This document shows positions 25-3,863 of a DNA stretch of 32,208 nt, piece after piece. Below the pieces are notes generated by a model that searched no databases, was not told where the DNA came from, and saw nothing but the letters and a program-made list of their open reading frames with translations. The position numbers and the translations under genes are program-made. Numbering within the stretch: the first letter of the stretch is position 1; each line of letters starts with the position of its first letter. This stretch comes from Psychrobacillus soli (lineage in GTDB: Bacteria; Bacillota; Bacilli; Bacillales_A; Planococcaceae), in NCBI RefSeq assembly GCF_006861775.1, contig NZ_VDGG01000045.1, positions 1 to 32,208 of the forward strand, given 5' to 3'.

Positions 25-190
25 TTTTCGCTGTGGGCGACGACTCCTGCCGGATGAGTGGGCAAATGAGTCATCCCTACGACGCCTAAGCGGCGGGGAT
101 GGCTCATCGCTCACCCGGCGGAAAGCGTTCGACTGCAGAGGAAATCCCAGCGAACACTTTATCTCAACTCACTACCACGCATTACCCCTA
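25..190 (+). repeat. Structured intergenic repeat, left copy
   Basis: This is a GC-richer, palindromic element in AT-rich DNA. Arms at 49-77 and 96-119 form a long imperfect stem of about 24 pairs with a small bulge. The loop holds GCCTAAGCGGCG. Outer ends TTCGCTG (27-33) and CAGCGAA (148-154) are also inverted repeats. Bases 101-158 match the reverse complement of 32111-32168 at about 50 of 58 positions, and both copies share ACTACCACGCA further out. No ORF is visible. Similar extragenic repeats with GGAAAGCG and CGACTGCAG cores are common in Bacillaceae as far as I recall; I cannot give it an established name. Confidence 0.8.
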
Positions 191-213
191 TAATCATTAG
201 TTTGCTACAATAT

Positions 214-244
214 AAAAAAAGCTAGCTGAGCGCTAGCTTTTTTT
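214..244. terminator. Rho-independent terminator of the phoPR-ligase run
   Basis: Perfect 13-bp inverted repeat (214-226 with 232-244) whose GCTAGC core has a 5-base loop. It is flanked by A7 on one side and T7 on the other, so it could work in both directions. It lies 82 bases beyond the stop codon of the minus-strand ATP-grasp gene. The stretch 245-325 holds nothing else I recognise. Confidence 0.9.
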
Positions 245-325
245 AGGTAAATCGTTTGGAAAAGGGGTCTATTTAAATGTAACAGACGATTGTAAATCTA
301 TTATGAATATATTGTAAATTTTTCC

Positions 326-1540
326 TCACCAATTATTATTTTTATATTTTTTATAATAATTAAACTGACGAGCAATTAAATATATTTTTCTCATGAAACT
401 TGTATCTTTTTTATAAAACAATGGATTTCCCCATTTTCCTGTTCTCAATAGATGTCTAATTTCTCTTTGAATTTCTTTATTATCGACAAACTTCTTTAAC
501 ACAATCTTAGGCACTACCGTAAACAAATAATGCTCATTTAATAATGTCAGCTGTTTTGGTTTGTTATGAATAACATCATCCACAAAATATCTTGCCATAT
601 TATGTCCAAGTGCCGTCGTATAATAACTTGAGCGTCCTTGACGAATATTCACTTCAAACACTTTAAATTTACCGTCGCGTTCATCAAACTTCAAATCAAA
701 GTTAGCAAACCCTACATACCCTACTGCTTCTAAAAAATGTTGAAGCTTTTTCATCAATTCTTCATCATATCTCGTAATAAGCGCTGTATAGTTTCCAATT
801 GCAGTTACCGTATGTTCTTGCAAAACAACTTGTGCAAGCGTACTTAACTGCGCTTTTCCCTTGGAATTCATATACAAAACAGAATCCCACATATACGTAT
901 CATCACCCGGAATATAATCTTGAATGATTAAATCTTCCGAATATCCACTAGCATTCACTTTATTAATGACATCATTTAGTTCTTCACGTGATTCTACTCG
1001 ATATACTTTTTGTTGCCCTGGAAATTTATTTTTATAATATTGAACACCATTACTTGGTTTAATGATTAAAGGAAACAATACTTCTTCTGTAAAAGGTTCC
1101 TTTTTGGCACAAGAATAATAGTACGTTTTTGGTGCATCAATTCCATGCTCTTCGCAAAGCTTATAAAAATTCGATTTCACCAGAAGATTATTCATTAACT
1201 CTTCTGACATATAATTAAATACATACATTTCTTTTAACGCTCTCGCATTTTCGATAATTAGTCGGACATAGAAATCATTTGTTCCGATTAACAGCAATTG
1301 CTTGCCAGCAGTCTTATATTTTTTTGCCACTTCCGTTAAAACGGTGACAAACGCAGCTTTATCCCATAAATTCGGATGAATTTCAATATGATCAATGACA
1401 CTGCTCCATTTCGTAAAGGACATTTCTTCCTTCCCGACTAAAATTGGCTTTATATTGTATTCTTCATGAAATGAAATAGCCATATTATAAGCATTCATAT
1501 CTGTTCCCACAATAATTGGGATAAATGATTCGTTATTCAT
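326..1540 (-). CDS. ATP-grasp D-aspartate (or D-glutamate) ligase-like protein
   Basis: A 404-residue ATP-grasp carboxylate-amine ligase. It resembles, from memory, the Enterococcus faecium D-aspartate ligase (Aslfm), which activates beta-D-Asp and attaches it to the Lys side chain of the peptidoglycan precursor. Visible matches include N-terminal FIPIIVGTDMNAY, IIKPSNG around K161, a GNY motif near 249, GFANFDLKFD (277-286) and FEVNIRQGRSS (295-305), whose Glu/Asn fit Mg-ATP binding. Length fits the family. An ATG at 1552 overlaps the phoR stop (TAATG), but GGAGGTAAAT directly precedes the ATG at 1540, so I chose that start. It is probably co-transcribed with phoPR. The amino acid used (D-Asp, D-Glu or other) cannot be read from sequence. 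Confidence 0.8.
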   Translation of the reverse strand: MNNESFIPIIVGTDMNAYNMAISFHEEYNIKPILVGKEEMSFTKWSSVIDHIEIHPNLWDKAAFVTVLTEVAKKYKTAGKQLLLIGTNDFYVRLIIENARALKEMYVFNYMSEELMNNLLVKSNFYKLCEEHGIDAPKTYYYSCAKKEPFTEEVLFPLIIKPSNGVQYYKNKFPGQQKVYRVESREELNDVINKVNASGYSEDLIIQDYIPGDDTYMWDSVLYMNSKGKAQLSTLAQVVLQEHTVTAIGNYTALITRYDEELMKKLQHFLEAVGYVGFANFDLKFDERDGKFKVFEVNIRQGRSSYYTTALGHNMARYFVDDVIHNKPKQLTLLNEHYLFTVVPKIVLKKFVDNKEIQREIRHLLRTGKWGNPLFYKKDTSFMRKIYLIARQFNYYKKYKNNNW

Positions 1541-1551
1541 ATTTACCTCCA

Positions 1552-3087
1552 TTAACTTTTAACCAGTGGTATGTACACAGTAAAACAGGTACCTTTACCA
1601 ACTTCACTATCTACTTCTATCAACCCATGATGCGCTTCTACAAGATGCTTCACAATCGCAAGACCTAAACCAGTACCACCTGAATTTCTACTTCTTGCGC
1701 GATCTACGCGGTAAAAACGTTCAAAGATTCGACTAATCTCTTCTTTACTAATCCCAATGCCCTCATCTTGAATTCGGAATATACCATACTTTTCATTTTT
1801 GAAAATGGAAATATGTAAAGTAGTATGATCAGATGAATACGTAATTGCATTTGTCACAAGGTTCATCATAATTTGCATTAAACGATTAGAATCTCCTAAT
1901 ACTTTTACGGAGTCTTCTACCGAAAACGCTAATTCGATTTCCTTTTCTTCTAGAAGATGTGTAGACATATCAATGCAACGATTTAGTACATCATTCAATT
2001 TTACTTTTTGCAAATTCACTTCATATCCTACTTGTTCGACTTTGGATAAGTCTAATAAATCAGTAATAAGCATTTGCAATCGATTACTTTCTTTATGGAT
2101 AATTTCTAGAAAAGAAATTAATGTTTCTTCATTTTTGTATGCTCCGTATAATAATGTCTCCGAAAATCCTTTAATAGAAGTTACCGGTGTTTTTAGTTCG
2201 TGGGAAACATTTGCTACAAAATCTTTTCGAACTTGCTCTAACTTAATAAGCTCCGTAATATCGTGCATTACTACAACGATACCTAACCATCTTCCATGTT
2301 CTCCAATTACAGGCGCCCCGTAAGCATCCTTATAATAAGTATGTAAATTGCGCTTAATCTGGATTTGCTCTCGGTATGAAGATTCTGTTAAAAATAATTT
2401 ATCAATAAAAGCTTCTACTTGATCCGGAAGCCCAATTTTCCGAAAAAGTTTTCCATCAACATTTTCAATAGAAATTTGTAATTGGTCCATAAAAGATCGA
2501 TTTATAATCGTAACAAGTCCGTTTCGATCAATCATTATTAAAGCACTACCCATGTTCTCAATTAGTGTTTTTAATCGCTCTTTTTCTGTTTCTCGCATAA
2601 CAGAAATATCATGTAAATTACGTGCAAGGATATTGATGGAATTACTTAATGTAGACATACCTGAAAAATCATCTTCAAATGCGCGTATACGATAGTTACC
2701 TCGTGCAAGCTCCATTGCAGTTTCAGTTAAATGTTCAATAGGTTGTGCATACTTCTTAAATATATTAGATCCTAAAAACAAAGCAACAAGAAAAGTGATT
2801 AATAATACAAAAAATAAAAATAACCAAAGAGAATGTTGGCCATTCTCAATTTCCTGATATTGAAGAGTAGAATTTAATAGCTGCTTTACATTTGCTTGCT
2901 CTTCTTTTGAAAGTTCTGTTTCAACTAAATAAGTCGAGATTTGCTCCATTTTAGAGTCGATTAAAGTAACTGTGGAGTAATTAACAAAAACAGGATACAG
3001 TTGTCCAAGAACTAGACCAAGACTAGCTAATATTAATCCAATTATTATTGAATATGTTCGTAATAGTTTGGATTGAAATCTCTTCAT
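1552..3087 (-). CDS. phoR: Sensor histidine kinase PhoR, short sensory region
   Basis: Membrane kinase paired with PhoP for phosphate-limitation control. Of 511 residues, TM1 is about 11-35, an extracytoplasmic segment only about 36-86, TM2 about 87-108, HAMP 110-162, PAS about 170-280, and HisKA carries phosphoacceptor His296 in FVANVSHELKTP. The ATPase domain has N-box NLVTNA (409-414), DEGIGIS (441-447) and GTGLGLA (471-477). The start codon overlaps the phoP stop (TAATG), so translation is coupled. B. subtilis PhoR is, as I recall, about 579 residues with a folded extracytoplasmic PAS-like domain; here that region is far too short to hold one. Its role as PhoR rests on the phoP neighbour and gene order after mdh. 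Confidence 0.92.
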   Translation of the reverse strand: MKRFQSKLLRTYSIIIGLILASLGLVLGQLYPVFVNYSTVTLIDSKMEQISTYLVETELSKEEQANVKQLLNSTLQYQEIENGQHSLWLFLFFVLLITFLVALFLGSNIFKKYAQPIEHLTETAMELARGNYRIRAFEDDFSGMSTLSNSINILARNLHDISVMRETEKERLKTLIENMGSALIMIDRNGLVTIINRSFMDQLQISIENVDGKLFRKIGLPDQVEAFIDKLFLTESSYREQIQIKRNLHTYYKDAYGAPVIGEHGRWLGIVVVMHDITELIKLEQVRKDFVANVSHELKTPVTSIKGFSETLLYGAYKNEETLISFLEIIHKESNRLQMLITDLLDLSKVEQVGYEVNLQKVKLNDVLNRCIDMSTHLLEEKEIELAFSVEDSVKVLGDSNRLMQIMMNLVTNAITYSSDHTTLHISIFKNEKYGIFRIQDEGIGISKEEISRIFERFYRVDRARSRNSGGTGLGLAIVKHLVEAHHGLIEVDSEVGKGTCFTVYIPLVKS

Positions 3088-3800
3088 TACGACTTTGGTT
3101 CCTCAAATTTATATCCAAGACCTCGTATCGTTTTGATAAAAATTGGCTTTCTACTATTCTCTTCAATTTTATCTCGTAAATGGCTAACGTGAACATCTAC
3201 AATCCGCGTATCTCCTGCAAAATCATAGTTCCAAACAGCGCTTAATAATTGGTCTCGTGTAAGTACTCTATTTTTGTTTTCGATTAAGTAAACAAGCAAT
3301 TCAAATTCCTTCGGTGTAAACTCAATTGGTTCTTCATTTAAAAGTACTTCAAAACGCTCTGGATAAATTTGCAGTGGTCCAAACAAGTACATTTCTTCTT
3401 TTTGCTTTATATCATTCAGCTGATGCTCGGTAGAAATGGTAGAACGTCGTATCATCGCTTTTACACGAGCGGTCACTTCACGTGGGCTAAACGGTTTGGT
3501 CATATAATCATCTGCCCCTAATTCAAGACCAAGCACTTTATCAAATTCTTCATCTTTCGCGGTAAGCATAATAATCGGTGTTTGAATCTTTTTCAGACGA
3601 AGTTCTTTACATACTTCCATTCCGTCCATATGTGGTAACATCCAATCTAACACGATAACATCTGGATTTTCCTCCATTGCACGATTCAAGCCTTCTAAAC
3701 CATCATTTGCAGTAATGACCTCAAAACCCGCATCTTCTAGATTATATTTTAATAATGTTACAATTGAGCTTTCATCATCCACAACTAATACTTTTTTCAT
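3087..3800 (-). CDS. phoP: Response regulator PhoP (OmpR family)
   Basis: A 237-residue DNA-binding response regulator. The receiver domain (about 1-120) has the acidic pocket VVDDE (6-10), phosphoacceptor Asp52 in VLDWMLP, Thr80 and Lys102. The C-terminal winged helix (about 135-235) ends in the typical VDVHVSHLRDKIE and RGLGYKF motifs of the OmpR/PhoB family. Phosphorylated by PhoR, it would bind Pho boxes of phosphate-starvation genes. A GGAGG sits 7 bases before the ATG. Downstream phoR overlaps by one base; upstream is a hotdog-fold gene 63 bases away, probably in the same transcript. The mdh-phoP-phoR order is standard for Bacillales. Confidence 0.95.
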   Translation of the reverse strand: MKKVLVVDDESSIVTLLKYNLEDAGFEVITANDGLEGLNRAMEENPDVIVLDWMLPHMDGMEVCKELRLKKIQTPIIMLTAKDEEFDKVLGLELGADDYMTKPFSPREVTARVKAMIRRSTISTEHQLNDIKQKEEMYLFGPLQIYPERFEVLLNEEPIEFTPKEFELLVYLIENKNRVLTRDQLLSAVWNYDFAGDTRIVDVHVSHLRDKIEENSRKPIFIKTIRGLGYKFEEPKS

Positions 3801-3863
3801 TTATATGCCTCCAAAAGTTGATTTGAAACCCCTATTCCAAATCATTTAACTTCAAATGTTGAT

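Follow-up and report, generated by a model that had tools for sequence, protein, structure and literature searches.

The 32,208-nucleotide (nt) stretch of Psychrobacillus soli DNA analysed here (the window), which is one whole contig of the source genome, carries a gene for a putative ATP-grasp ligase set tightly behind the phosphate-response genes phoP and phoR. We think it probable that this enzyme is an interpeptide-bridge ligase, most likely for D-glutamate (D-Glu), that it is read from the phoP-phoR message inside a unit of the type described for the small RNA PhoS, and that its role in the wall is independent of phosphate. The ligase would attach one D-amino acid, most likely D-Glu, to stem-peptide residue three, at its side chain, thereby making the interpeptide bridge; its acceptor would be a peptidoglycan precursor in which, for Psychrobacillus, that residue is ornithine. 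It would be translated from a phoP-phoR transcript that has a hairpin leader before phoP and whose terminator also serves the family's PhoS. The latter, made from its own PhoP-box-like promoter, would pair with the phoP leader and, by analogy with Bacillus PhoS, open it and raise PhoP under phosphate shortage. The elements concerned, in the order of the message, are:

3819-3844, minus strand: hairpin in the leader of the phoP mRNA, with a G-rich loop and a UUUGGAAUAGGGGUUUCAAA core, just upstream of the phoP Shine-Dalgarno (SD) sequence.
3087-3800, minus strand: phoP, response regulator of 237 amino acids (aa) with Response_reg and Trans_reg_C domains.
1552-3087, minus strand: phoR, PnpS-type sensor kinase of 511 aa (NCBIfam NF046044, 438.4 bits against a cut-off of 400).
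1550-1545, minus strand: SD sequence of the ligase gene, GGAGGT, beginning one base past the phoR stop codon TAA (1554-1552).
326-1540, minus strand: ATP-grasp ligase of 404 aa, clade A, proposed from homologues, tree and model fold as a D-Glu interpeptide-bridge ligase.
291-318, minus strand: PhoP-box-like array of three TT[ATC]ACA hexamers at 11-bp spacing, with 17/18 matches the best in the whole window.
212-270, minus strand: PhoS-like small RNA of a predicted 59 nt, with a predicted start and an unpaired C-rich 5' end AGACCCCUUUUCCAAAC, followed by the terminator.
213-245, minus strand: intrinsic terminator hairpin and U-run (folding z -4.6 and z -5.4), closing the operon and the small RNA alike.

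Pfam gives no match for the ligase, and NCBIfam returns ATP-grasp models only, far below their cut-offs. The AlphaFold (AF2) model, built on an alignment of 45 sequences, has a predicted local distance difference score (pLDDT) of 92.1 and a predicted template-modelling score (pTM) of 0.89. Its fold is that of ATP-grasp enzymes, with an L-amino acid ligase (3vot), PurK, biotin carboxylase and 2pn1 as the best solved matches and no bridge ligase among the solved-structure matches listed; a PDB profile search with A3 gave no match at 1e-3. Judged by this model, the protein is a member of the ATP-grasp superfamily. Its identity to the ligases of Lactobacillus crispatus, L. fermentum and L. curvatus is 30-34% over 95% of the length; in this comparison the three Lactobacillales proteins stand in for AslA of Lactococcus lactis and Aslfm of Enterococcus faecium. 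The Latilactobacillus curvatus relative (named 'carboxylate--amine ligase') is preceded by aspS and an amino acid racemase gene, and in Lactobacillus crispatus asnB stands before the ligase gene. AslA of L. lactis is described, in the accessible part of the source, as an ATP-grasp D-aspartate (D-Asp) ligase with racD in its operon, an asparagine synthase amidating the D-Asp (PMC4155827). Because of this homology to ligases with a racemase or asnB context, and of the likeness to AslA, the window protein most likely belongs with the interpeptide-bridge ligases. The first-pass annotation had called it an Aslfm-like wall ligase on three motifs (FIPIIVGTDMN, GFANFD and FEVNIRQGRSS); all three are present in the translation and the kinship with bridge-type ATP-grasp ligases of Lactobacillales stands, the 'Aslfm-like' label of the motifs being that reader's own.

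A ligase homologue was found in all 151 Planococcaceae genomes searched. Clade A, defined by E < 1e-150 in that search, is present in 78 genomes (57-100% identity to the window protein), and the other 73 hold only clade B or C (36-44%). The tree was computed from 135 of the 193 ligase rows, near-copies having been removed and L217 excluded beforehand; in this quick tree, which has some long branches, the 72 rows of clade A are split from B, C and the Lactobacillales ligases by a branch with a support of 99 in the Shimodaira-Hasegawa-like approximate likelihood ratio test (SH-aLRT). By this tree clade A is apart from the clade of racD-linked ligases, and the window gene lies in A. Residues at positions 87, 109, 218, 219, 221, 241 and 340 differ between the two sides, in a comparison that omits three long-branch rows (L215, L220 and L227).

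The racemase genes follow the same division. With the TIGR00035 profile at E up to 1e-20 taken as a racD-family match, 73/73 genomes with only B or C have one, against 18/78 clade-A genomes, 3 of which also hold a B copy; the remaining 60 have no match at that threshold. The source genome is one without a TIGR00035 match at E 1e-20; it has murI, and no FemX-like gene was found in it. The pattern is repeated within the genera g3, g4, g6, g9 and g19; it fails in g7 and in g11, whose sole clade-A genome holds a racD-family gene too. In a labelled set of 80 loci (41 A, 38 B, 1 C), racD stands just downstream of the ligase in 30/38 B loci and 0/41 A loci, and all 13 labelled B genomes have a racD-family gene; among the tree rows, racD is near the ligase in 44/54 of B, 6/9 of C and 0/72 of A. 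Five A-type genomes come from other families, four without a racD-family gene and one (G494) with two. Since MurI makes D-Glu, a D-Glu ligase has no need of a racemase partner, whereas a D-Asp ligase needs one. The clade split and the racemase association are seen in the sequences; from them we infer the substrate, namely that clade A, including the window gene, consists of D-Glu bridge ligases.

Reported wall types agree with the clades in part; one species and some genus labels conflict. The available portion of PMC5786688 gives L-Lys-D-Glu for Planococcus, L-Lys-Gly-D-Glu for Sporosarcina and L-Lys-D-Asp for Paenisporosarcina, and a source accessible in part gives Lys-Asp for Lysinibacillus. 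Clade A comprises P. citreus and 14/16 Sporosarcina loci, from genera reported with D-Glu, and clade B comprises 13/17 Lysinibacillus-labelled loci, including the type species L. boronitolerans, plus P. quisquiliarum, in agreement with the genus-level reports. The Solibacillus wall is reported as L-Lys-D-Glu, and none of the analysed loci carries that name; for Sporosarcina highlanderae, whose genome is outside the analysed loci, an excerpted description gives L-Lys-L-Ala-D-Asp, which would fit clade C. In Metalysinibacillus-type loci FemX-like genes, whose products would add the Gly or Ala of the bridge, follow clade A at 67-71 nt; in three labelled Sporosarcina loci they follow it at about 2.1-2.3 kb, and in L089, L090 and L222 they stand with racD beside clade C.

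Several observations weigh against D-Glu as the substrate of clade A. Three long-branch rows of the tree, one of them with racD (L210), join nearer to A with a support of 82, in an unsure position. A racD-family gene lies elsewhere in the genome in 8/11 clade-A genomes of genus g7, and a non-adjacent one occurs in 8/20 labelled clade-A genomes; D-Asp could also come from another enzyme. Planococcus antioxidans Y74 (L141) has a clade-B ligase with racD, and its wall is reported as L-Lys-D-Glu (PMC7294307); in this species either the clade rule fails or the reported wall type is mistaken. Several genus labels are mixed: Planococcus/Planomicrobium loci split into 6 A and 5 B, Lysinibacillus-labelled loci into 13 B and 4 A, Sporosarcina into 14 A and 2 B, and Paenisporosarcina, a genus reported with D-Asp, into 2 B and 1 A (P. 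indica). Asparagine-synthase-like (AsnB/AsnH) genes, which otherwise accompany D-Asp ligases, lie 130 nt upstream of the clade-A ligase in L190, a Sporosarcina metagenome-assembled genome (MAG), and 1.24 kb upstream in L186 (Paenibacillus sp. FSL A5-0031); they could serve amidation of a D-Glu bridge or be a sign of D-Asp. For Psychrobacillus itself L-Orn-D-Glu is the wall type that we presume, ornithine alone being backed, by a cited title; for Caryophanon, Chryseomicrobium, Kurthia, Viridibacillus and Ureibacillus, too, the wall types are presumed.

It may thus be asked whether the ligase adds D-Asp, clade A being a divergent group of D-Asp ligases fed by a non-adjacent racemase or by a transaminase. 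We regard this as unlikely, although the homology to Lactobacillales ligases that lie beside a racemase gene or asnB, the racD-family gene somewhere in 18 of the clade-A genomes, the place of P. indica in clade A and the gene directly upstream of the ligase in L190 all speak for it. What tells against it is the lack of a racemase-family match in the source genome and in 60 of the 78 clade-A genomes, the lack of racD near any of the labelled A loci, the separate position of the window gene's clade and the membership in A of P. citreus and most Sporosarcina loci. D-Asp, taken at the outset as the default substrate, was demoted to second place by the racemase pattern and the tree, and the D-Asp specificity suggested in the first-pass annotation is probably wrong for a MurI-containing genome without a racemase partner. 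A limited literature search brought up no D-Glu bridge ligase in the part that was read, which did not extend to PMC3266927 (listed with the words 'D-glutamate ligase'). Far less probable, in our opinion, is that the enzyme acts outside peptidoglycan synthesis, in the formation of peptides, cofactors or other amides. The closest solved structures are indeed those of other ATP-grasp enzymes and the family databases do not claim the protein, but a homologue in every family genome searched and a sister clade tied to racD argue for the wall, as do the FemX-like genes at or close to loci of A as well as C.

Some genomes combine elements of these groups. Both A and B ligases occur in L134/L202 (Metalysinibacillus jejuensis) and L144/L161 (Lysinibacillus yapensis); these two-ligase genomes, with a FemX-like gene beside A in Metalysinibacillus, possibly make mixed bridges. 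Extra divergent ligase copies are found in L218, L219 and L221 (g14, of Lysinibacillus type), with racD adjoining the divergent copy in L218 and L221. Outside Bacilli, the Clostridia-labelled MAGs of L198, L199, L201 and L203 carry B- or C-type ligases with racD, asnH or FemX-like genes.

The other half of our proposal concerns the position of the gene. On sequence grounds phoP and phoR are the orthologous PnpR/PnpS two-component pair: they overlap by one base, and the phoP product, below the cut-offs of the NCBIfam models shown, is full-length and adjoins phoR. The open reading frame of the ligase extends in full over 326-1552 on the minus strand, and the ATG at 1540 is its likelier start, because GGAGGT follows the phoR stop and the ATG further upstream, at 1552, varies among relatives, some having TAATGGAG and others TAACGGAG. 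From the phoR stop to the ATG there are 11 nt, which bears out the first-pass annotation of a ligase gene tight behind phoR with its own ribosome-binding site. No terminator between the two genes was listed in a pattern scan, which also missed the hairpin and U-run at 213-245 known from folding. Promoter-like sites number 17 by scan, against 23.6 in shuffles. An internal ligase promoter within the 3' end of phoR was considered and set aside: codon conservation is flat, without a clear signal (0.44-0.65 per 20-codon bin, mean 0.53; the last bin, at 0.65, has 10 codons).

The tight junction recurs in four genera, namely Psychrobacillus, Chryseomicrobium, Planococcus and, with Paenisporosarcina indica, Paenisporosarcina. 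All 51 phoR-linked locus rows, in which some genomes are counted twice, have GGAG at or just past the phoR stop; none of their junctions exceeds about 24 nt, and every one has a strong SD sequence. In the first locus set an orthologous phoR (at least 48% identity) lies directly upstream of 29/57 clade-A and 0/33 B/C loci, and in the labelled set phoPR adjoins 13/41 A and 0/38 B loci; phoR without a ligase gene behind it was found in 16 other genomes. As judged from these counts, the linkage of phoR and ligase is more than chance. Since the ligase belongs to the unit in these four genera but stands at other places in the remaining genera seen, the enzyme family would be independent of the phoPR linkage and its role independent of phosphate. 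For the survey of phoR-ligase synteny against wall types suggested in the first-pass annotation, the linkage extends over four genera and the clades fit the reported types in part, with conflicts for Y74 and the mixed genera.

Behind the ligase stop (or behind phoR, if no ligase gene follows), most loci show the same succession: first comes a PhoP-box-like array, then a -10-like element built around an invariant TA, and after these a C-run and a terminator. In the window the score of the array was reached by none of 500 shuffles of the 60-nt stretch, and a scan of the whole window gave no strong array before phoP or the ligase. At P <= 0.01 against shuffles the array is present in 19/21 other linked loci, the exceptions being the two of Chryseomicrobium, and in 8/10 unlinked loci with the RNA (not L230 and L232), compared with 0/6 loci without it. 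The C-run takes the forms AGACCCCUUUUCC, AGAACCCCCUUCAACC and AGAAACCCCC. R1, a model of the small RNA, finds it in 54/151 genomes at E 4e-8 or better; its total of 122/151 overstates the spread, as many weak matches (E 1e-5 to 1e-2) cover the PhoP-box part alone. R1 holds sequence only, since RNAalifold returned no consensus structure, MAFFT having left the unequal terminator stems unaligned. Rfam has no family for the RNA, and a match to isrD at 214-251 (E 0.039, below the threshold of that family) is due to the terminator alone. Taken as a guide to other targets, the seed 11-mer TGGAAAAGGGG has a few matches per genome in 18 Psychrobacillus genomes. Beyond the terminator, at the contig end, a GC-richer stretch at window positions 30-170 (GGAAAGCG... 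/ GACGCTTTCCG...) looks like a dispersed repeat, and the same terminator precedes copies of it in L009, L010 and L015.

The counterpart of the C-run is the G-rich loop of the phoP leader. A core like UUUGAAA-UGGGGG-UUUCAAA stands directly before the phoP SD sequence in 67 of 73 loci (a table of 74, less L357, which lacks phoR); with up to one mismatch the core occurs in 19/39 family genomes and in 1/357 other genomes of the class, and in the source genome once, at 3822-3841 with one mismatch. Folded alone, the window hairpin has a z of -1.6, with 16/200 shuffles equally good. Over 57 distinct leader/RNA pairs the stem varies with its pairing kept: at pair 4, 50 have GC and 5 have AT; at pair 3, 41 have AT, 13 GT and 3 GC. 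Leader and C-run RNA are found together in 61 of the 73 loci, neither is found in 6, and 6 have a leader but lack a C-run at the set distance. Reading of these last six shows a C-run in L334, L344, L345 and L351, and none within 170 nt in L329 and L332. The loci in which both are absent are L238 and L240-L244, with Bhargavaea- and Sporosarcina-type genomes among them. As the 40 loci L319-L358 were chosen by their R1 match, the unselected test is confined to the 16 phoR loci not so chosen, 10 of which have both parts and 6 neither.

The computed leader-RNA duplex of the window amounts to -25.6 kcal/mol, against -11.4 +/- 2.7 in 200 shuffles, which preserve base make-up only. Over the 61 loci the mean is -27.2 kcal/mol with a mean z of -4.1; 57 beat at least 194 of 200 such shuffles and 4 are not distinct. 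Own leader/RNA pairs are better than 5000/5000 re-pairings (-24.2 vs -21.7), in statistics that ignore kinship; at the median the own leader ranks only 9th among 57, and by genus group the own pairing is best for 3/5 leaders. It counts against the pairing that Planococcus leaders have better partners than their own RNAs. Judged by complementarity, the small RNA can nevertheless pair with the phoP leader hairpin, and the ends of the operon resemble RNA elements belonging to the phosphate response. Gene layout and complementarity are observed in the sequence, whereas the co-transcription, the expression of the RNA and the direction of its effect we infer.

How far the ligase takes part in phosphate regulation can be read in more than one way. 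The array might be an operator, with the C-rich element and terminator serving the next operon and no RNA gene present; an SPFH (hflK-like) or polA gene does come next in most loci read. This we hold to be improbable, as the terminator closes the element about 60 nt from the predicted start, the C-run matches the phoP leader and several hflK-like genes have a promoter-like TGAAAC-N16-CGTA of their own (by eye), presumably of the extracytoplasmic-function (ECF) sigma type. That motif precedes the SPFH gene downstream of the ligase in L004, L169, L184, L031 and L034. A second possibility, which concerns regulation and is compatible with the phosphate-independent bridge ligase proposed above, receives from us slightly better than even credence: the phoPR link would be positional only, the ligase having come to lie behind phoR in one or a few events, with bridge synthesis independent of phosphate under a constitutive phoPR promoter. 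It would suit a link confined to four genera, a window without a strong array before phoP or the ligase, and an enzyme whose constant expression is likely needed, the L. lactis D-Asp ligase being reportedly essential. Against it stand the close junction and strong SD sequence of every linked row, and a small RNA that could raise the whole message.

The reverse idea is that clade A builds D-Glu bridges (L-Lys-D-Glu, L-Orn-D-Glu, L-Lys-Gly-D-Glu) and, in Psychrobacillus, Chryseomicrobium, Planococcus and P. indica, does so inside a PhoP-PhoS positive-feedback unit, bridge capacity rising as phosphate and wall teichoic acid fall. We offer it as a speculation and rather doubt it. The common phosphate control of phoPR and bridge synthesis put forward in the first-pass annotation finds no support in the window, whose one strong array lies behind the ligase and fronts the predicted small-RNA gene. 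The RNA elements at the ends of the operon make the connection between phosphate and bridge testable.

The chemistry of the bridge has a classical place among the taxonomic markers of Gram-positive walls, and D-Asp ligases are known. If clade A is a D-Glu enzyme, the wall type would become legible from the genome, with A pointing to D-Glu, either B or C together with racD to D-Asp, and a FemX-like gene plus A to Gly-D-Glu. Moreover, the PhoS-like pair suggests that the phosphate-response RNA loop of Bacillus spans much of Planococcaceae, its pairing clean and open to testing, and encloses a wall-synthesis gene in some genera.

Among known systems, the ligase resembles AslA of L. lactis and Aslfm of E. 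faecium in being a homologous ATP-grasp ligase, as judged via the three Lactobacillales stand-ins, and differs from them in its separate clade, the absence of a racD partner and a substrate that is probably D-Glu. For the RNA, the accessible part of PMC12101431 describes PhoS of Bacillus (B. subtilis, B. velezensis) as a 66-nt RNA from the phoR 3' untranslated region (UTR) that has a promoter to itself and is induced when phosphate is short; it raises phoP translation by preventing an inhibitory structure of the 5'UTR. This prior art, opposite in sign, led us to drop an earlier view of the window RNA as new and probably repressing. PhoS was not found for Planococcaceae in a limited search of partly available literature. 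The window RNA would share with PhoS its place 3' of phoR, its own PhoP-box-like promoter, its shortness and its pairing with the phoP 5'UTR, and, on the published description, we take it as the Planococcaceae counterpart. In 4/14 loci of other families ACCCCUUCAUCC follows phoR, a fifth having a variant, with an ACCCC..UUC core by eye. The family differs from Bacillus in that the target is a G-loop hairpin, with a pairing of about 17 bp, and in that, in four genera, phoS is set apart from phoR by a ligase gene. The mechanism is thus already known, while, as far as the limited search goes, the novelty seems to lie in the spread through the family, the hairpin as target and the enclosure of a ligase gene.

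Gene order shows the same mixture of likeness and difference. In Bacillus it is mdh-phoP-phoR-polA. The loci read here have mdh, phoP and phoR followed by polA or by hflK-hflC-polA; they differ in a MaoC-like gene that separates mdh from phoP and in the ligase behind phoR. Inside this frame the unit would run, by sequence, from the phoP leader through phoP, phoR and the ligase gene to phoS.

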